This document shows, one piece after another, positions 1-43,653 of a DNA stretch of 64,000 nt. The position numbers and the translations under genes are program-made. The stretch is from positions 1-64,000 of the forward strand of contig JAFXFM010000006.1 in assembly GCA_017520545.1 (NCBI GenBank). The letters run 5' to 3'. This DNA is from Alistipes sp. Its GTDB lineage: Bacteria > Bacteroidota > Bacteroidia > Bacteroidales > Rikenellaceae. Numbering within the stretch: the first letter of the stretch is position 1; each line of letters begins with the position of its first letter. Under the pieces are notes generated by a model. It was not told where the DNA came from and searched no databases. It saw nothing but the letters and a program-made list of their open reading frames with translations.

Positions 1-52
1 GAGCAAAGGACTGAAAATCCTTGTGTCCCCGGTTCGATTCCTGGTGGCACCA
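1..52 (+). tRNA. tRNA-Phe (GAA), 3' part, cut by window edge
   Basis: The anticodon arm is clear: stem AAGGA/TCCTT closing a CTGAAAA loop with anticodon GAA. It is followed by a T loop TTCGATT and the 3' acceptor strand TGGCACC with discriminator A. The acceptor 5' half and most of the D arm lie outside the window. As written, the T stem CCCGG/CCTGG holds one C-T mismatch. CCA does not appear to be encoded. Confidence 0.9.
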
Positions 53-187: not shown

Positions 188-2419
188 CTACTTCTTCTTA
201 ACGATTTTATAGCCGTTGTGTGTCAGTAGCCAATGGGCATCGTCCATAAGTTGATAGTCGTACTTTATGACATCGGCACGCTGCAACTCTTTGGGTGCCG
301 GCTTTTTGCCCTCGCTGCCGCGGGCGGCGACAATCTTGCGGTACTCAAACAGTCCATCGTAGGTGGTGATGCAGCCGTGTCTGCGCAGTTTGATATTCTT
401 ACCATTAGTGTATTCGCCGTCAATCTTTTCGTACGCTATGGCACTCTTTGGTGCCGGAACCATTCCCTTGCTTATCATAAATGCGTTCCAGCGTAAGTGC
501 TCGTGAATGGCGAGATTTTTTCTTAATCCTTCATCAAATTCCAATGGGTAGTTGATAATCAGTTTGCCGTCAGCGTTCAGATCGGAGACGACGAGATGAG
601 TATTTTTCGCATAAATTTCGAAGTATTCTTTGTCCGATACCTCTTTTCCAACCTTTTCCGTCTTAGGACAGCAGTCGAGTCCCATAAGGTTTAGTTTTGA
701 ACGAAGACTCAAACAGCAATATGCGCTCGACTCTCTGTCGAGTTGCGGGATGCGCATATACCAATCCTTATGAGATTGCAACTTAATTTTATCTATCTCT
801 GTTTGTTTGAGTTTTTGTTTTCGTTGTGTTACTACTCGTTCGATCTCGTAATAGGCATTTCTGCTCTGTGCCATTTGAGTCAAACTGTCCGATATTATAT
901 TATCGATATTGTAGATAGTTTGGTCTTCATTGCCAATGATATGGCAGTGGTCGTCCTCTGCGAATAACACTTCGTTGTGTGCATTTCTTACCTTAATGAG
1001 GATATTGAAATTTTTCACCTCCCACTCTTTGAATTTGCTCGATAATTTCTGCGCCATATCGATATTCTCCAAGTCGGAACCAAATGCTATGACAACATAG
1101 TTTATATTTGTAAAATCTTTGTTGCAAACAATCTGTCGTATATCGGTGTAAAACTCTTCGGCGTTTATGTCAAGCTTGTGGAAGAGTGTGTTTGCCGGCT
1201 GTTTAGGTAATGGCAGGTACTCTCTATTCTGCTCATCTTTATTTTGCTCATATATAATTATCTTGCCGAACTCGTTGTTATAGCGATTGTAGCTGTGGTT
1301 CAACTTCTTGCTGCTCAACATTGCCTCGTGGTCGAAGAGGTGGTAATTCACCAGTTTTGGCACGACGCGAGAGTCCTTCATTGTTATAAACTGATTGTTT
1401 GCTACCGATGTCAGGAAGAATTGTTGATTTGTCTTTCCGAATCCTATGAGCAGGGCATTTATTTCGTAGCCTTCATTAATGCACGCGGTTTCATAATTTA
1501 CTTGCTCGGAGGTTAAGTAGAGCGAGAATGGGTGTTTCTCGATGGCCTCTATTGCGGATTTTCGATACTTGTTTATGTATGATATGCAACCGTGGCCATT
1601 GTCTACTATGTTCTCGTAAATCGTTTCGAATTTCGGGTCGCCAAATGTAAAAATCCTCAATTGTTTGAAGCATTCGGCATATTTAGCTTTACTTAAATTT
1701 AAATCTGATATAGCACGGACAAAGTAGTTGCATATCTTAATGTTAGCGGAGTCGTTATTTGTGTTTATTATAATGATAAATTTGTTATCTTTGCTTAGAA
1801 CGTCTTTGACGATTTTCCCAATATAATCTTCCGTCGTTTTTGGGTTTCGATGCAGGATCTTCTTCTTGTATAAAATGTCATCGTTATATTTGCTGTCGGA
1901 AATTGCCACCTCGTCGATTATTATTTTTGCTCTTTCCTTGTCGCTGAAATAGATGGCGTGATTTTGAGGGTTGTTGCCGAAGAGTATCAGTTTGTCCTTG
2001 TTCGAGCGCTCGAATTTGCGGATTTGGAAGTAGTGCCATATATACTGGTGGGCAAAAGATATGATAAGCAATATGCTATTGATTGCTGCGAACGAGAAAC
2101 AGGTGTAGATTGCTACACGGTAGATAGGGTAGGCGTCAATCGTGTCTTTTATATGGGTGGTGTCGTATCCCAAGATAATCAAATCGACGCTTCGCTTGAT
2201 TGCGCTGAATAGGCTGTCGATAATGTCTTTGTTGGCATCATAATATCCGACCCAAAAGAGGGGAATGGCGTAGATGTACATAAATACACCTTTTCCTTTC
2301 TTGAAGCTGCGGATGTATTCGATTCTGTCGACTCTGTTTTTCCGTATTAGGTTGTAGAAGAATGTTAGTGCGCTGAATACCATTATGGCTATGCACGCTA
2401 AGCTGATGATGTCTATCAT
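188..2419 (-). CDS. Membrane-anchored TrkA-like / RyR-domain protein
   Basis: This 743-residue protein has hydrophobic segments at about 2-22, 44-58 and 97-126. A Rossmann-like stretch begins near 143 (KLILFGNNPQNH) and a second one (ALLIGFGKTNQQ) lies further on, resembling TrkA-N nucleotide-binding folds. The last 107 or so residues match the RyR (ryanodine receptor repeat) pattern: HEHLRW, then H-G-C and Y-x-x-L, and a C-terminal LLTHNGYKI. RyR domains in bacteria are thought to act as ligand sensors. An in-frame TTG at 2497 would add 26 residues, but the ATG at 2419 places the first membrane helix at the N terminus and is preferred. It is divergent from the YARHG/TIR genes and shares their upstream region. 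The domain calls are by eye; the function is unknown. Confidence 0.75.
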   Translation of the reverse strand: MIDIISLACIAIMVFSALTFFYNLIRKNRVDRIEYIRSFKKGKGVFMYIYAIPLFWVGYYDANKDIIDSLFSAIKRSVDLIILGYDTTHIKDTIDAYPIYRVAIYTCFSFAAINSILLIISFAHQYIWHYFQIRKFERSNKDKLILFGNNPQNHAIYFSDKERAKIIIDEVAISDSKYNDDILYKKKILHRNPKTTEDYIGKIVKDVLSKDNKFIIIINTNNDSANIKICNYFVRAISDLNLSKAKYAECFKQLRIFTFGDPKFETIYENIVDNGHGCISYINKYRKSAIEAIEKHPFSLYLTSEQVNYETACINEGYEINALLIGFGKTNQQFFLTSVANNQFITMKDSRVVPKLVNYHLFDHEAMLSSKKLNHSYNRYNNEFGKIIIYEQNKDEQNREYLPLPKQPANTLFHKLDINAEEFYTDIRQIVCNKDFTNINYVVIAFGSDLENIDMAQKLSSKFKEWEVKNFNILIKVRNAHNEVLFAEDDHCHIIGNEDQTIYNIDNIISDSLTQMAQSRNAYYEIERVVTQRKQKLKQTEIDKIKLQSHKDWYMRIPQLDRESSAYCCLSLRSKLNLMGLDCCPKTEKVGKEVSDKEYFEIYAKNTHLVVSDLNADGKLIINYPLEFDEGLRKNLAIHEHLRWNAFMISKGMVPAPKSAIAYEKIDGEYTNGKNIKLRRHGCITTYDGLFEYRKIVAARGSEGKKPAPKELQRADVIKYDYQLMDDAHWLLTHNGYKIVKKK

Positions 2420-2599
2420 TGTTAAATTTTTTTCTTGCAGCCGTTGCTTTGTGGCTGCTACGTTAAATTGGGTGTAAAAGTAGTGAAAATTTTTCAAATA
2501 GTCGTGGTTGCTCAGGATATTTTTAGTCTGTTTTTGAGGATATGGAGTGGAAGAGTTGCCGTACTAAAAAATTGTTGATAATTATTTCTACGAAATATG

Positions 2600-2628
2600 T
2601 TGCAAAATAAGAAAAAAGTGTATTTTTG
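2600..2628 (+). promoter_or_regulatory. Bacteroidetes-type promoter for the YARHG/TIR pair
   Basis: TTG at 2600-2602 and a perfect TAnnTTTG box (TATTTTTG) at 2621-2628 are separated by 18 nt. This predicts a start near 2635 and a leader of about 120 nt. The 337 nt between the two divergent start codons hold no other gene. Confidence 0.6.
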
Positions 2629-2756
2629 CAAAGATTGGTGAAAAACGTAGTTTTTGTTCGTTGTTTATGGGCTGTGCGGCGCTTGATACGGAGTGCGAAA
2701 ACGAGAAGTAGAAGCCAAGTCGGAGAGATAGGATAAGATACTTAAACGTAGATAAA

Positions 2757-3218
2757 ATGGAGAATAGTCAAATTAATTCGCAGAGCAGTTCGGTTTCGCA
2801 GGAGGTGCGCGACTTGAAGAAGATTTGTATTGTGTTGGCAGCAGTGGCTGCCATTGCTCTTTCGACGGTGTTTGCCGCTGTTTACGTAATCTGTCGTTTG
2901 CAAGCCGAAGACCCGGGTAGCGATGGCGCTGTAACGTGGAACGATAGTGTCGCCGCAAGTGCTCCGACTCTTGCTCCTCAGGGTGCGTATCCGTTCACTT
3001 CATTGCGTAAAATTACTTACGATGATATTGCACATCTGTCGTCGGCTTCACTTCGCATTATGCGCAATGAGATATATGCCCGCCACGGCTATATCTTTGA
3101 TAGCGAGGATTTGCGCAGATACTTTCAGCGTCAAAGCTGGTACACTCCTGTGTCGAAAACGGTGAATCTAACCGCTATTGAGAAATACAATGTCGAGTTT
3201 ATTAAACAATACGAGTAG
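2757..3218 (+). CDS. Membrane protein with extracytoplasmic YARHG domain
   Basis: This 153-residue protein has a short charged cytoplasmic N terminus and one membrane helix at about 23-47. A Ser/Ala-rich linker follows, then a YARHG domain from about 78 to the end, with the signature motif at 107-111 inside LRIMRNEIYARHG and then RRYF and SWY. YARHG is a small extracellular domain named for this motif, with no settled function. The C-terminal half is nearly the same as that of the TIR protein encoded 28 nt downstream, so the two genes look like partners in one operon, this one lacking the TIR effector. It could compete for or share a ligand with the TIR protein (inference). Confidence 0.8.
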   Translation: MENSQINSQSSSVSQEVRDLKKICIVLAAVAAIALSTVFAAVYVICRLQAEDPGSDGAVTWNDSVAASAPTLAPQGAYPFTSLRKITYDDIAHLSSASLRIMRNEIYARHGYIFDSEDLRRYFQRQSWYTPVSKTVNLTAIEKYNVEFIKQYE

Positions 3219-3246
3219 TCGTAGGAGAAAAAATAATCGGTAAATT

Positions 3247-4158
3247 ATGAATCACGAAGTTTTTATTAGCTATTCGAGCCGCGATAGAGAGGCTGCGCAG
3301 ATTATCTGTTCTGCATTGGAGCAGAATGATGTAAAATGCTGGATTGCACCAAGAGATATTCCTGCGGGTGCGGAGTATGGCGATTTGATTGATGAGGCTA
3401 TTCGTCGCTCGGTGGCTGCTATTGTGATATTTTCGGAGACTGCGGCATCCTCGGTGTGGGTTAAGGCGGAGATGAATGTTGCGTTCGATGAGCAGAAAAT
3501 TATCATTCCGTTCCGTTTGGACCAAACTCCGTTGCAGGGTCAGAGCCGATTGATTCTCAATCACAAGCACTGGATTGACGCATATCCCGACTACAAGTTG
3601 AAAATTGACGACTTGGTTGTGGCGGTATTGCGAGCATTGGGCAAGAGTGTTGTGAACGAAACGGAGGAGAGCAGCGTATCGCCGGTACAAGTAGAAGATA
3701 TTGACGTAAAGAGTGTGTTGGTGTCGCCCGAGAATAAGAGGGCACGAGCTACGGAGAGTAGACCCGCCTCGGCAAAGCCTTCGCGCAGCGGTAAAAAGTG
3801 GGCTATTGCGCTTATTGCGGTTTTGGCGTTGTTGCTGGTTGGTGCAGGTGCGGGGTATTTGTATCAAAAACTCTCCGATAAGACCACCACAGAAGAGGTC
3901 GGCGTTGAGCCTGTGGGGAAGTATCCATTCACTTCGCAGCGTTTAATTACCGAGAAAGATGTTGAGGGTTTGAGTATATCGGAGCTTCGCATTATGCGCA
4001 ACGAGATTTATGCTCGTCACGGTCATATTTTCAAAGATGCCGAAATGCGTAACTATTTCGGGGCTCAAAAGTGGTATAAACCACGGCCAACCAGTGTGAA
4101 GTTGAGCGCTATTGAGCGGAAAAACATTCTTCTCATTCAACAATACGAGAACTTGTAA
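3247..4158 (+). CDS. TIR-TM-YARHG membrane protein
   Basis: Residues 1-135 form a TIR domain: EVFISYSSRD at the start, CWIAPRDIPAG, and a candidate catalytic Glu75 in WVKAEMNVAF, the position used by NAD-cleaving TIR domains. A low-complexity linker leads to a membrane helix at about 184-206. A YARHG domain fills 226-303 (motif 255-259). This topology puts the TIR inside the cell and the YARHG sensor outside. Bacterial TIR proteins often consume NAD+ or make signalling nucleotides in antiphage defence; whether this one does is not shown by sequence. It is probably cotranscribed with the upstream YARHG gene. A TIR domain joined through the membrane to YARHG is unusual. Confidence 0.85.
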   Translation: MNHEVFISYSSRDREAAQIICSALEQNDVKCWIAPRDIPAGAEYGDLIDEAIRRSVAAIVIFSETAASSVWVKAEMNVAFDEQKIIIPFRLDQTPLQGQSRLILNHKHWIDAYPDYKLKIDDLVVAVLRALGKSVVNETEESSVSPVQVEDIDVKSVLVSPENKRARATESRPASAKPSRSGKKWAIALIAVLALLLVGAGAGYLYQKLSDKTTTEEVGVEPVGKYPFTSQRLITEKDVEGLSISELRIMRNEIYARHGHIFKDAEMRNYFGAQKWYKPRPTSVKLSAIERKNILLIQQYENL

Positions 4159-4206: not shown

Positions 4207-4956
4207 ATGTTTACACTGATTTTCGCAATTTACACACTTGTTATATTGACAATTTTTACGACCTTGTCGTTTGTGGCGTTGATAGTTTGCTATCCGTTTG
4301 ATAAGCGTCGTCGTGTAGTGCACGAGATATCGCGTTGGTTGTGTTTTTTCTGGTGGTATGTGCCACTCACCTGGAAGCGCAAAATCTCGGGCCTGGAGAA
4401 TGTCGATAAGAACAAACCTTACGTTATCGTTATCAACCACAACTCGATGGTGGATATCATTTCGCTCTATTTTGTGCGCTTGAATTTCCGATGGGTGTCG
4501 AAGCAGGAGGTGTTTCGCATTCCGTTCATCGGCCCGATGTTGTGGATGCACGGCGATATAGCCATTCAGCGTGGTCGTGCTACCGAGTCGATGAAAAAGG
4601 TAATTCGCGATGGTATGATGTGGCTCAATCGTGGTGTGTCGGTGGCGATATTCCCCGAGGGTACTCGCTCGAAGAATGGCGAGATACAGCGTTTTAAGGG
4701 AGGAGCGTTTGTGCTGGCGAAGGAGGCAGGTGTGGATATCTTGCCCGTTGTGATGGACGGCACAACCGAAATTTTCCGTCCAAAGAGCATCTTCTTCAAT
4801 TGGAAGCACTGCCTTACATTGAAGGTGTTGCCACCAATCCCTGCTTCGAAGGTTGCCGAGACCGATGCAAACGATATGGCGCAGCAGGTGCAGGCTATGA
4901 TGGTTGAGGCTTTGGCACAAGTGAGAGAGGAGAATGCAAAAAACAAAAAGGAGTAA
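4207..4956 (+). CDS. plsC: 1-acyl-sn-glycerol-3-phosphate acyltransferase
   Basis: This 249-residue membrane enzyme of the PlsC family adds the second acyl chain to lysophosphatidic acid during phospholipid synthesis. The N terminus is a hydrophobic anchor (about 1-30). The acyltransferase motif HX4D appears as HNSMVD, the Arg-containing block as IAIQRGR, and the glycerol-phosphate binding motif as FPEGTRS. It starts 48 nt after the TIR gene, so it may be read through from that operon, but its function fits the housekeeping run that follows. Confidence 0.9.
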   Translation: MFTLIFAIYTLVILTIFTTLSFVALIVCYPFDKRRRVVHEISRWLCFFWWYVPLTWKRKISGLENVDKNKPYVIVINHNSMVDIISLYFVRLNFRWVSKQEVFRIPFIGPMLWMHGDIAIQRGRATESMKKVIRDGMMWLNRGVSVAIFPEGTRSKNGEIQRFKGGAFVLAKEAGVDILPVVMDGTTEIFRPKSIFFNWKHCLTLKVLPPIPASKVAETDANDMAQQVQAMMVEALAQVREENAKNKKE

Positions 4957-6960: not shown

Positions 6961-9717
6961 ATGAACGAAGAGAAAGATATACAGGAAGAGTTGTTAAACG
7001 AAGAGGAGCTTGTAAGCTCGGAGCCGGGTAAGTACGATGCGTTGATGGCGGAGCAGAGTGCAAAGCGATTGACGGGTATGTACAAGAATTGGTTTTTGGA
7101 CTACGCCTCGTACGTTATTTTGGAGCGAGCCGTGCCTCATATCGACGATGGCTTGAAGCCTGTGCAACGTCGTATTCTGCACGCTATGAAGATGGTCGAT
7201 AATGGCTCTCTCATAAAGGTTGCAAACCTTGTGGGACAGACTATGCAGTATCACCCTCACGGAGATGCATCAATCAAAGATGCGTTGGTGCAGCTCGGAC
7301 AGAAGGAGTTGCTGATCGACTGTCAGGGTAACTGGGGTAATATCCTCACGGGCGATGATGCTGCGGCTGCTCGATACATCGAGGCTCGTCTGTCGAAGTT
7401 CGCTTTGGAAGTGGTCTATAACAAGAAGACTACCGAGTGGATGTTGGCATACGACGGTCGCAAGGAGGAGCCTGTAACATTGCCTGTGAAGTTCCCGTTG
7501 CTGTTGGCGCAGGGCGCCGAGGGTATTGCCGTAGGTCTGGCATCGAAAATCCTGCCGCACAACTTCAACGAGTTGATTTCGGCATCTATTGCTCATCTTA
7601 AAGGCGAGGATTTTCAACTCTATCCCGACTTCCCGACGGGAGGTATGATTGACGTATCGCGCTATAATGATGGCTTGCGAGGCGGTGCGGTGAAGGTGCG
7701 TGCCAAAATTTCGAAGTTGGATAAGAACACTTTGGCAATTACCGAGATTCCGTTCTCGACCACTACCGAGAGTATAAAAGACTCTATATTGAAGGCTAAC
7801 CAGAAAGGCAAAATTAAGATACGTCGTGTAGACGACAATACCGCTCGTAAGGCGGAGATTGTCGTTCAGGTAGCGGCGGGAGAGTCGTGCGACAAGACCA
7901 TTGATGCACTCTACGCCTTCACATTGTGTGAGGTGTCGATTTCGCCAAATGCTTGTGTCATCAAAGACGACAAGCCTGCATTTATGGGAGTTAGCGATAT
8001 TTTGCGCCATTCGACAGACCACACGAAGGCGTTGCTGCAAAAGGAGTTGGAGATTGCCTTGGCTGAGCATAACGAGGCTTGGCACGCTGCATCGTTGGAG
8101 CGTATCTTCATCGAGAACAAACTCTACCAACTTATCGAGGGTTGTAAGTCGCGTGAAGAGGCATATACTGCCGTGGATAAGGGCTTGGAGCCATTTAAGA
8201 AGTTGCTCCGTAGGGAGGTTACCATAGAGGACGTTCAGCGCCTCACGGAGTTGAAGTTCATTCGTATCTCGCGTTTCGACTCGGATAAGGCGGATAACGA
8301 GATTAAGCAGATTGAGAAGGATATCAAGCAGGTTAAGCACGACTTGGCTCACCTCACCGACTATGCTATTGCATACTTTGAGCATATTCGCGAGAAGTAT
8401 GGTAAGGGCAAGGAGCGTCAGACCGAAATTCGCGAGTTCGACTCTATCGAGGCTACAAAGGTTGCGGTATCAAATGCTAAACTCTACGTCGATAGGGCGG
8501 AGGGCTTCTTCGGTATCGGCAAGTCGATGAAGGACGCCGAGTTTGTCTGCGACTGCTCGGATATAGACGATGTGATAGTGATATTGAGAGATGGTCGTTA
8601 CGTCATCACAAAGGTCGCCGACAAGAAGTTCGTGGATAAGAATATATATTATATAGGTGTATTCAAGCGTAACGACGAACGCACCATCTACAACCTCCTG
8701 TATCGCGATGGTAGAGGTGGCAATATAATGATGAAGCGATGCGCCATTAAGGGTATTACTCGCGACAAGGAGTACGACCTGACGAAGGGTACACCAAAGA
8801 GCGATATTCTCTACCTTTCGGTCAATCCGAATGGCGAGGCAGAGGTGTTGAAGATATACTTCCGCCCACGCCCACGATTGAAGAAGATGATTGTGGATTT
8901 GGACTTCTCGGAGTTGGCTATCAAGGGACGTCAGTCGCAGGGTAACCTCTTCTCGCGCTATCCGATTCATAAAATTGTGTTGAAAGAGAAGGGTGTATCG
9001 ACCCTTGCAGGTCAGAATATATGGTGGGACGAGGACGTTCGACGACTTAATAGCGACGGACGAGGAGTGTTGCTCGGTGAGTTCAAGGGCAACGACAAAA
9101 TTGTAGTTTGGACAGCGAAGAACCTCGCCTACATCACGGGCTTCGATACTCAACAGCACTTCCCTGATGATACCGTGCGTGTTGAGCGATACGAAGCGGG
9201 CAAGGTCTATAACCTCTGCTACTTCGACGAGGAGCAGGGCTACTACTATATGAAGCGTTTCCAGTTGGAGCAGAGCGATAAGGCGCAGTATTTCCTCGAT
9301 GAAGATGGCTCGTGCCGCTTCGAGTGCATTTCGGGTGCAAAGGGCTCGCAGTTGCAGATAACCTACAAGGGTGCACACGAGAATCGTCCTGCCGATATGG
9401 TTGATGTTGAGGAGTTTGTGGGCGTTAAGTCGTGCAAGGCGAAGGGTAAGCGATTGACCACATTCGACGTGGCTACGCTAACCTTCATAGAACCAGAGAT
9501 TGTTGAGCCGGAGGAGCCCGAGAACGAGTCGGAACCAATAGACGAGATGGAGGAGCCGATGGTTGAACCATTTGAGGAGGTTGAGGAGGTTGAGGAGGTT
9601 GAGGAGAAGCCTGCTCCGACAAATGTGGTGAAACCTGTAAACAACAGCGGAACTCCAATCGAGATTATCCGCAACGATATTGACGAGAGTAAGAGTGAGC
9701 AGTTGAATCTGTTCTAA
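6961..9717 (+). CDS. parC: DNA topoisomerase IV subunit A
   Basis: This 918-residue DNA-cleavage subunit carries the winged-helix motif GLKPVQRRILHAM near 65-76 and the catalytic Tyr139 in AAAARYIEARL. A beta-pinwheel C-terminal domain and a very acidic tail from about 840 follow. The tail includes a 9-nt coding repeat (9577-9604) that gives repeated EEVE. In the quinolone-contact region HPHGDASIKDALV the position of the usual Ser is Ala103; the acidic residue is kept as Asp107. It is paired with parE and ends 4 nt before aroK. Confidence 0.9.
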   Translation: MNEEKDIQEELLNEEELVSSEPGKYDALMAEQSAKRLTGMYKNWFLDYASYVILERAVPHIDDGLKPVQRRILHAMKMVDNGSLIKVANLVGQTMQYHPHGDASIKDALVQLGQKELLIDCQGNWGNILTGDDAAAARYIEARLSKFALEVVYNKKTTEWMLAYDGRKEEPVTLPVKFPLLLAQGAEGIAVGLASKILPHNFNELISASIAHLKGEDFQLYPDFPTGGMIDVSRYNDGLRGGAVKVRAKISKLDKNTLAITEIPFSTTTESIKDSILKANQKGKIKIRRVDDNTARKAEIVVQVAAGESCDKTIDALYAFTLCEVSISPNACVIKDDKPAFMGVSDILRHSTDHTKALLQKELEIALAEHNEAWHAASLERIFIENKLYQLIEGCKSREEAYTAVDKGLEPFKKLLRREVTIEDVQRLTELKFIRISRFDSDKADNEIKQIEKDIKQVKHDLAHLTDYAIAYFEHIREKYGKGKERQTEIREFDSIEATKVAVSNAKLYVDRAEGFFGIGKSMKDAEFVCDCSDIDDVIVILRDGRYVITKVADKKFVDKNIYYIGVFKRNDERTIYNLLYRDGRGGNIMMKRCAIKGITRDKEYDLTKGTPKSDILYLSVNPNGEAEVLKIYFRPRPRLKKMIVDLDFSELAIKGRQSQGNLFSRYPIHKIVLKEKGVSTLAGQNIWWDEDVRRLNSDGRGVLLGEFKGNDKIVVWTAKNLAYITGFDTQQHFPDDTVRVERYEAGKVYNLCYFDEEQGYYYMKRFQLEQSDKAQYFLDEDGSCRFECISGAKGSQLQITYKGAHENRPADMVDVEEFVGVKSCKAKGKRLTTFDVATLTFIEPEIVEPEEPENESEPIDEMEEPMVEPFEEVEEVEEVEEKPAPTNVVKPVNNSGTPIEIIRNDIDESKSEQLNLF

Positions 9718-41548: not shown

Positions 41549-43099
41549 GTGAAAAAGATATTTATTTTGCTGATGTCATTGCTGTCTTGTTTGGTAGTAA
41601 ATGCGCAGGATTTTGAGGTGCCACAAGATTCATCAACAGCATATCCTCTAACAGAGATAAAGAGTGATGGCAAGTTGTCGTGGACTATTAATAGAATATA
41701 TTGTACCCAAAAGTTTACGTATGTTAGGGTTAGAACAACTATTTTAAGCAATAAATGGGGTGAAGTGGTTGTGTCTCCAGAAACGAAATTGTATGCCGAT
41801 AAGAAGGCATATCAAATAAGAGGCTGGTTGGTTTCTGAAGCAAGTGGTAACAAGCGCTATGCACCAGGTGCAGAGTATCCATATTACACAGGTAACAAAG
41901 GTAACTATATGGATAGTTGGTTAGTATTTCCGAAAATTCCGTATAATATAGCTAAAGTTAACCTGGAACTGAATGGGCTTAATTGGACGGATCTCACCGT
42001 TTTGAGCAATGAAGATCCTTTGACTTTGACAGATTGGACAGAGGAAGCACTCCGTATGTATTGGCAACAAAATGGTATTCAGGACTACGAGGGAATATAC
42101 GAGTTTGCGGAGACTACAAATGCTAAGTGGTGGGGCGAAGCTAAACCTGTATTGGCGTTAAAAAGGGAGGGGGACTCCTTTAAAGTTATCTATCTTGCCG
42201 ATTATGGCAAAAAACAATCTATGTGGAAAGAGGGCCATCTAAAAGCAGAGATTAGACTGACAGCCGTTAGGGACTACTATCGCGTATCGTGGATTGCAGA
42301 TAATGGAGATGTAAATACGAATGTGCAAGTAGAGCTAAAAGATGGAATGTTTGCTGTTAAAAGTAGAGAAGCAAATGGAACAACAATATTCGTTAGAATG
42401 TTCCCTGGCGCATCAGAAGGTGGTAGCAGTGGCGGCGGTTTGCCTACATCTCCTCAGTCGCAGGGTAGCCAGTCTTACACTACGCAGGGTAGTGGTATTA
42501 TCATTGATAAATCTGGTATTATAGCAACTAATTATCATATTGTTGCCAATAAATCGACATGCGAGATTGTTGTAAGAGATGGACATACAATCAAGACTTA
42601 CAAAACTAAATTGTTGGTTGCCGATAGAGTGAACGACCTTGCTTTGTTGCAAATTGAAGATAAAGATTTCCAGACATTTGCTTCGTTGCCATTTACAATT
42701 AAATCAGATATATGCGAAACGGGAACAAACATATTCTCTATGGGCTATCCATTGTCTCAGTATATGGGTGATGAAGTAAAAATTACAGACGGTATTATAT
42801 CTTCAATAACAGGATATCAGGGAGATGTCGTAACTTATCAAATATCAGCCCCAATTCAGCCCGGAAGTAGTGGCGGTCCTCTATTTGATAAAAAAGGCAA
42901 TTTGATTGGTATTACAAATGGAGGTATTATCGCTGCGCAGAATGTTGGTTATGCGATCAAATCAACATACTTGCGTTTGTTGATTCAATCTTCACCAGTT
43001 CAAATAAACACACCAACAACAAATACTCTTTCAAATCTAAGTTTGTCTGAGCAGATTAAACAGTTGTCAAAATTTGTAGTTATCGTTAAAGCTAAATAA
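41549..43099 (+). CDS. Exported trypsin-like serine protease (DegP-type catalytic domain)
   Basis: This 516-residue protein starts at GTG (41549) with a signal peptide ending VVNAQ. Residues 20-290 form a beta-rich region I do not recognise. The S1-type protease domain fills about 310-500 with catalytic His330 (NYHIVA), Asp363 (NDLALL) and Ser441 (GSSGGPL). No PDZ domain follows. The codon use differs from the neighbours: AGA/AGG for many Arg residues and clearly more A and T, suggesting recent transfer. The exported protein encoded 8 nt downstream is likely its partner. Confidence 0.85.
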   Translation: MKKIFILLMSLLSCLVVNAQDFEVPQDSSTAYPLTEIKSDGKLSWTINRIYCTQKFTYVRVRTTILSNKWGEVVVSPETKLYADKKAYQIRGWLVSEASGNKRYAPGAEYPYYTGNKGNYMDSWLVFPKIPYNIAKVNLELNGLNWTDLTVLSNEDPLTLTDWTEEALRMYWQQNGIQDYEGIYEFAETTNAKWWGEAKPVLALKREGDSFKVIYLADYGKKQSMWKEGHLKAEIRLTAVRDYYRVSWIADNGDVNTNVQVELKDGMFAVKSREANGTTIFVRMFPGASEGGSSGGGLPTSPQSQGSQSYTTQGSGIIIDKSGIIATNYHIVANKSTCEIVVRDGHTIKTYKTKLLVADRVNDLALLQIEDKDFQTFASLPFTIKSDICETGTNIFSMGYPLSQYMGDEVKITDGIISSITGYQGDVVTYQISAPIQPGSSGGPLFDKKGNLIGITNGGIIAAQNVGYAIKSTYLRLLIQSSPVQINTPTTNTLSNLSLSEQIKQLSKFVVIVKAK

Positions 43100-43107
43100 A
43101 GATTATT

Positions 43108-43653
43108 ATGAAAACAATTAAATTTATCGCTATTGCGTTTTTCCTTGTATTATTTATGAGTGCTAACGCCCAATCATTTACTGTCGAATCCCCCGTTGAT
43201 ACCTCACGGCAGGAGGTTAAGACCTTGCCAAATATCACAGTTCTCTCTTTGGATGGTAAAGAGGTGTTGTTTACTACAGCTTGTGGAATGAAGCATGTTG
43301 TTTTGTGTAATATAGGTGCACCAAATGTAGGAAATTGGATGAATAAATTTAAGGAGGCGGGAGTACCATCTGTATCTTTGATTTCGTGGGCTCCTATGCT
43401 CACGAAAGGAATGACAAAATATATGTTGGCGTTTTATAAGAAGACGTTCTACAGATGGGAAAAGAAGTATGGTGTTACATATAATATTGATTGTCAGCAG
43501 AACATGGTAAATGTTTGGGGACTCCCCAAAGATGATAAATGTATGTATGTGTTTGTGCTTGGAGAAGAAGGTGAAATCTTATATTCTGCAGCATCAACTA
43601 ATGCGGATAGCTTTGATAAAGCAATCATAGAAGCCGCTAAATATATGAAATAG
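43108..43653 (+). CDS. Exported thioredoxin-fold-like hypothetical protein
   Basis: This 181-residue protein has a signal peptide ending SANAQ. The order LPNITVLSLDGKEVLF, KHVVLCNIGAP, WMNKFKEAG, NVWGLP and FVLGEEGEILY resembles the core strands of AhpC/TSA or TlpA-type thioredoxin folds. The CxxC active site is absent (only TTACG, LCN, IDCQ and KCM cysteines). It is therefore a redox-dead relative or a look-alike. It shares the AT-rich composition of the protease gene 8 nt upstream and forms an operon with it. Confidence 0.5.
   Translation: MKTIKFIAIAFFLVLFMSANAQSFTVESPVDTSRQEVKTLPNITVLSLDGKEVLFTTACGMKHVVLCNIGAPNVGNWMNKFKEAGVPSVSLISWAPMLTKGMTKYMLAFYKKTFYRWEKKYGVTYNIDCQQNMVNVWGLPKDDKCMYVFVLGEEGEILYSAASTNADSFDKAIIEAAKYMK

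Follow-up and report, generated by a model that had tools for sequence, protein, structure and literature searches.

Close to its start, the window analysed here (the first 64,000 nucleotides of contig JAFXFM010000006.1, Alistipes sp. assembly GCA_017520545.1) encodes a protein of 303 amino acids in which an N-terminal TIR domain is followed by one transmembrane segment (TM) and a C-terminal YARHG domain (3247..4158, + strand). Its start codon lies 28 bp past the stop codon of a gene for a TIR-free YARHG protein (2757..3218, +), and the two genes form a recurrent pair. Our favoured but tentative reading, which we would not put quite at an even chance, is that the TIR-TM-YARHG protein is a single-pass transmembrane sensor-effector reading the cell envelope via YARHG, that the free YARHG protein is its partner, and that the divergent RyR-like gene (188..2419, −) is an unrelated neighbor. 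An earlier, sequence-only reading of the window had joined all three genes into one module. The three open reading frames (ORFs) exist as it described them (188-2419/2497 on the − strand, 2757-3218 and 3247-4158 on the + strand), and its description of the last two as membrane proteins sharing YARHG, one of them with a TIR domain, is borne out by Pfam scores well above the curated cut-offs.

The YARHG domain (PF13308, cut-off 27 bits) reaches 82.6 bits in the partner (E 1.9e-23; 3000-3215) and 78.8 bits in the TIR protein (E 3e-22; residues 229-302, 3931..4152). It is C-terminal in both proteins, and the two copies are 50–55% identical. TIR_2 (PF13676; 3259..3597, E 2.2e-23) scores 83.5 bits against a cut-off of 28. 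The two domains are set apart by the TIR protein's strongest hydrophobic stretch, residues 187-205 (3805..3861), with five lysine or arginine residues in the 15 residues before it compared with two after it. Since the basic residues are more numerous on the N-terminal side of the TM, the TIR domain is predicted to be cytoplasmic and YARHG to lie outside. The same orientation is predicted, from hydropathy and charge only, for the corresponding proteins of two other genomes of the genus, G017 and G572. The partner is predicted to consist of a short cytoplasmic tail, one TM (residues 23-41; 2823-2879) and an external YARHG domain. The proposal that the fusion senses outside the cytoplasm and acts inside thus fits the predicted topology. 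Glu75 (codon 3469..3471), previously named as a candidate catalytic residue, occupies a column with Glu in 60 of 62 aligned TIR rows and is kept, together with the box-1 residues I7-S8-Y9, in all three TIR-YARHG fusions. According to the accessible text of PMC7075850, the NADase activity of one subclass of TIR domains depends critically on this conserved glutamate. A comparison with solved structures yielded 4g2a for YARHG (1.1e-5) and a metazoan TIR-STING protein for TIR (5e-4).

YARHG was detected in 10 of the 180 genomes of the genus and TIR_2 in at least 61. Three of the 10 YARHG genomes, namely the window genome, G017 and G572, encode TIR-TM-YARHG in one ORF, in each case with an open frame, one strong TM and a complete YARHG domain, and at all three loci a same-strand TIR-free YARHG gene adjoins the fusion. 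The partners themselves vary: a single YARHG domain with a TM anchor in the window, a four-cysteine N-terminus (zinc-ribbon-like by eye) with a TM and two YARHG domains in G017, and a signal-like segment with two YARHG domains in G572. In the order as a whole, YARHG occurs in 51 of 393 genomes. At 29 YARHG loci outside the genus, one per genome from the 50 other YARHG genomes of the order (the YARHG ORF was re-found in 28), no TIR ORF was present within about 1.5 kb on each side. The fusion is therefore uncommon, and none of the loci checked beyond the genus has it. A contig scan with the TIR-YARHG protein, based on single-sequence patterns that are insensitive, recovered nothing but a YARHG protein of Clostridioides that lacks TIR.

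A gene for a Peptidase_M15_4 protein (D-Ala-D-Ala carboxypeptidase; Pfam E 1.2e-20 and 1.9e-21), lipoprotein-like by eye, comes directly after the pair in G017 and G572; the gene that shares 8 bases with it in G572 is that of the TIR-TM-YARHG protein itself. In both genomes the pair adjoins genes which, from their N-terminal sequences, we take to be ftsY-like and rimO-like. The same locus holds YARHG and the peptidase without TIR in G050, G022, G564 and G566 (stretches that include L050 and L053), and in G559 a peptidase of this type comes after a PEGA-Lcl_C-YARHG protein encoded at a different locus. Strong M15 matches (E 2.4e-65 or better) were obtained in seven of 171 genomes, all seven of them YARHG genomes, and each time the M15 gene lies directly downstream of a YARHG gene at a spacing of −8 to +26 bp. 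The chance probability of this coincidence is 1.6e-10 if all 10 YARHG genomes are in the draw. Weak M15 matches (1.2e-7 to 1.9e-4) occur in fifteen other genomes. The YARHG genes concerned are L048:6984-7946, L050:7902-8864, L053:7443-8297, L074:5680-6636, L076:7631-8536, L077:5429-6313 and L075:7267-7986; four of the seven pairs overlap by 8 bases. All seven peptidases keep the stretches SxHxxGxAxD and HFDxxHFE, which presumably form the metal site of M15. According to a hypothesis put forward in PMC3355149, YARHG binds peptidoglycan; genomic support for this view, as far as the accessible part of that paper sets it out, comes from the YARHG-M15 gene pair.

Based on this arrangement, we propose that the periplasmic YARHG domain of the fusion would bind peptidoglycan or a wall-associated protein, and that the TIR-free YARHG protein may compete for the same ligand or heterodimerise through it, setting the resting state or the threshold. 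A change in the wall such as damage, hydrolase action or phage entry would cluster the TIR domains on the cytoplasmic side of the membrane, and these could then cleave NAD+, produce a nucleotide signal or bring in a partner. The outcome may be phage defence or wall homeostasis, and two more specific explanations take up these outcomes. According to the first, TIR is a non-enzymatic scaffold or interaction domain that tunes wall remodelling together with YARHG and M15 proteins. The M15 gene directly downstream of YARHG in all seven strong-match genomes and the 8-base overlap with the fusion gene in G572 speak for such a role in envelope homeostasis; the retention of Glu75 and I7-S8-Y9 in all three fusions, as in catalytic TIR domains, and the lack of M15 in the window genome speak against it, and we regard it as unlikely.

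The second is anti-phage abortive infection, in which YARHG would detect a wall breach at phage entry or lysis and TIR would deplete NAD+. Among the PADLOC models the TIR domain matches PDC-S66 best (1.2e-9), followed by SAVED-TIR (1.3e-9) and ThsB (5e-4). The distribution in the genus is patchy. The stretches fetched from 12 relatives that share the acyltransferase/topoisomerase block contain no ORF matching the YARHG, TIR or RyR-like protein. In addition, a second TIR gene is found close to the related TIR-TM-FGE gene. However, the PADLOC matches span the TIR domain only, and the genes downstream are not defence genes but an acyltransferase gene present in 170 of the 180 genomes of the genus, and hence not specific to the pair, and topoisomerase genes. 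No known defence partner was found among the scanned neighbors, which comprised five window proteins around the pair for Pfam and three for PADLOC. Overall, such an anti-phage role seems improbable to us on the present evidence. The TIR-free partner also matches PglX in PADLOC (1.8e-4, 17.9 bits) over the TM, the linker and the first part of YARHG, which we took as chance. Membership in Thoeris (ThsA/ThsB) was rejected as well. The TIR domain is weakly similar to ThsB models, but the protein is membrane-anchored with an ectodomain, and no ThsA-like gene is adjacent, the scanned neighbors being the acyltransferase, a gyrB/parE-type gene and the RyR-like protein. Likewise, despite the second-best match to SAVED-TIR effectors of CBASS, the TIR protein has no SAVED domain and no cyclase was found among the scanned neighbors, and CBASS membership was discarded.

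The TIR-YARHG architecture was apparently assembled more than once. Our TIR tree comprises 62 domains from 63 TIR ORFs, one of which was dropped for a TIR match under 95 residues; the ORFs come from 74 fetched stretches, which cover part of the TIR matches in the genus, and are thus a sample. The window TIR groups with the TIR of a TIR-TM-FGE protein in stretch L034 (support 99), which is also its closest relative (65–69%), apart from the TIR domains of G017 and G572. Forcing the three fusion TIRs into one clade costs 117 log-likelihood units (p-AU 1.9e-5), and because they do not form one clade, repeated origins are indicated. The sampled TIR proteins carry FGE-sulfatase, Lcl_C-like (below the Pfam cut-off), WG, Sel1, lipocalin or YARHG parts. 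The ectodomain is shared with a gene within 3 kb in five of 19 TIR-single-TM-ectodomain proteins (three YARHG, one FGE, one lipocalin), a set in which the window protein is counted, as is one (L080) that belongs to a different family of the order. The background of such sharing is 20 of 480 ORFs, or 13 of 157 with a signal-like N-terminus (Fisher p 0.03 for the latter), with the L034 genes also counted in the background. Outside the proteins with an Lcl_C-type C-terminal motif the sharing rises to five of six, a post hoc subset whose Fisher p of 5e-5 is not to be taken at face value. In L034 the TIR-TM-FGE gene lies within 3 kb of two FGE genes. The surrounding block (L034:5634-14057) encodes a soluble TIR protein, a 514-residue protein with a TIR-like stretch by eye and no Pfam match, and the TIR-TM-FGE protein, followed by proteins with signal-like starts, among them the two FGE proteins and a BspA-type LRR protein. 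In L080 (2121-3688) a TIR-TM-lipocalin gene stands beside one for a small lipocalin protein. The weakly Lcl_C-like C-terminal domain with its YKVGDYY motif was seen in L035, L036, L038, L040-L043, L046, L049, L051, L052 and others, and of 28 other matching proteins within the fetched stretches, 27 contain TIR, some of them with a TM and some without.

These data could also mean that there is no dedicated system at all, and that TIR-TM modules capture nearby ectodomains whose present copies are short-lived recombination products. The separate positions of the fusion TIRs, the variety of attached domains and the proximity of the window TIR to that of a TIR-TM-FGE protein are in line with this. 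On the other hand, all three fusions retain open frames, Glu75, a strong TM, a complete YARHG domain and an adjoining YARHG gene, and we consider this explanation quite improbable. A capture by each fusion of the YARHG domain of its own neighbor finds no support in the YARHG tree, in which one clade of fusions is not rejected (p-AU 0.43).

Going beyond the sensor-effector reading, we may speculate on a Toll-like logic, in which a membrane TIR monitors the cell's own wall via YARHG, is restrained by a TIR-free YARHG protein, was assembled at least twice and was recruited into YARHG-M15 operons, as one member of a larger group of TIR-TM receptors whose ectodomain recurs in a secreted protein encoded nearby. 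Taken in full, this wider picture is rather unlikely, and several observations count against it and against the sensor-effector reading itself. Long branches in several TIR rows, including that of G017, make the exact positions in the TIR tree unsure, and the YARHG tree is not resolved enough to reject a single origin of the fusions. The ectodomain is shared in five of the 19 proteins only and in none of the 13 with an Lcl_C-type motif, so a universal rule that TIR-TM-X stands beside a free X fails. Adjacent homologous domains could moreover be simple tandem duplications. No M15 gene of this type was found in the window genome, and the link to the wall is therefore drawn from relatives; nor was one seen at the YARHG genes of G058 and G045, the other two YARHG genomes of the genus, or, within about ±1.5 kb, at the 29 YARHG loci examined elsewhere in the order. 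Not every TIR domain is an NADase.

Compared with described systems, the TIR-TM-YARHG protein resembles, in layout, those YARHG receptors of PMC3355149 whose cytoplasmic part is a kinase or zinc ribbon and which likewise combine a cytoplasmic module, one TM and a C-terminal extracytoplasmic YARHG domain. It differs from them in that the cytoplasmic module is TIR; the accessible text of that survey presents no TIR architecture, and a word search of it for 'TIR' was empty. Metazoan Toll-like and IL-1R receptors are also one-pass proteins with a cytosolic TIR domain and an external sensing domain, going by the available part of PMC7075850. Here, in contrast, TIR is N-terminal, the order being reversed, and the ectodomain is unrelated; the likeness is one of working principle, and we propose homology for TIR only. 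The FGS/TIR conflict systems of multicellular bacteria (PMC7159879, PMC8195603, PMC10907252) join TIR with a C-type-lectin-fold FGE domain, as in L034. As presented in the accessible portions of these papers, however, they are built on STAND NTPases and MoxR-vWA, many with cytoplasmic targets, and no TIR-TM-YARHG protein is described there. Judging from titles and the beginnings of abstracts, such a protein is not described in the other papers found.

YARHG, TIR and one-pass receptors are thus known already; what deserves to be followed is the fusion of TIR to YARHG, with its repeated assembly, and the YARHG-M15 pair, not the link to RyR. Among the bacterial TIR immune proteins that have been studied, most respond to triggers in the cytoplasm. 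If our reading is true, TIR biology would extend to envelope sensing, through a TIR domain connected across the membrane to a domain that binds the wall. The YARHG-peptidoglycan hypothesis of PMC3355149 also becomes directly testable with small soluble proteins.

The RyR-like gene is probably a separate acquisition near a tRNA gene and an unrelated neighbor of the pair. It measures 743 codons from an ATG (188-2419) or 769 from a TTG start (to 2497). The TrkA-like and RyR labels given to its product gain no backing from profiles or structures: neither was matched in Pfam (E up to 1), NCBIfam or PADLOC (E up to 0.1), the Pfam RyR model (PF02026) gave no match up to E 10, and two comparisons with solved structures yielded no RyR. 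By blastp, however, residues 322-695 align with L146, a protein from the same order in which Pfam finds a RyR domain (E 1.1e-6); the alignment (48.5 bits, 24% over 397 columns) reaches its RyR region, and phmmer on the same set omits L146 and lists L154 and L156 instead. Since the best of 200 shuffled queries attained 32.7 bits, far below the match to L146, the protein is plausibly a remote relative of TrkA-RyR-type proteins, and the former RyR label was a fair remote-homology call. L146, L154 and L156 lie next to small ORFs (90–107 amino acids) with a Pfam RyR match. Of the three membrane helices ascribed to the protein, hydropathy of the 743-residue form clearly supports two (4-22 and 102-120), while the middle one is weak.

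No homologue of the RyR-like protein was found in 149 relatives (a set that includes G017 and lacks G572) or in 394 genomes of the phylum, two slightly overlapping sets searched with one divergent query that may miss remote relatives; L146, L154 and L156 were reached only via the RyR family. The gene is likewise absent from the 14–16 kb around the pair in G017 and in G572, the latter not searched genome-wide, and plasmids, phages and a viral scan with six short patterns gave no match. Its GC content of 0.412 is the third lowest among 51 window genes (mean 0.493, standard deviation 0.033), and it adjoins the 3' part of a tRNA gene (1..52, +; Rfam) that is cut by the contig end, as the window opens at the beginning of contig C13; a complete tRNA is not reported anywhere in the window by ARAGORN. 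We judge the gene probably unrelated to the pair because of the missing match in relatives, the low GC content and the cut tRNA. The co-occurrence expected by the sequence-only reading consequently holds for YARHG and TIR-YARHG at all three loci and breaks down for RyR, whose membership in the module we reject for want of gene linkage in the genomes searched. That a TIR-made nucleotide signal is sensed by the RyR/TrkA-like membrane protein in a three-gene module, as its divergent position in the window genome and its resemblance to an RyR-domain protein of the order might suggest, is very improbable given this absence, its GC content and its place beside the cut tRNA.

Upstream of the pair, TATTTTTG (2621..2628, +) is a candidate −7 element of the Bacteroidota type; it is one of 78 such matches in the window, and the full two-box promoter pattern has no match in this intergenic stretch. 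The acyltransferase is of the PlsC type (4207..4956, +; Pfam) and begins 48 bp downstream of the TIR-TM-YARHG gene. It is followed by the gyrB/parE-type gene (Pfam) and a gene at 6961-9717 that is presumably of the parC type. The lowest GC contents of the window, 0.389 and 0.374, belong to two genes at 41573-43653 that encode a Trypsin_2 protein and then a 181-residue protein without a Pfam match.

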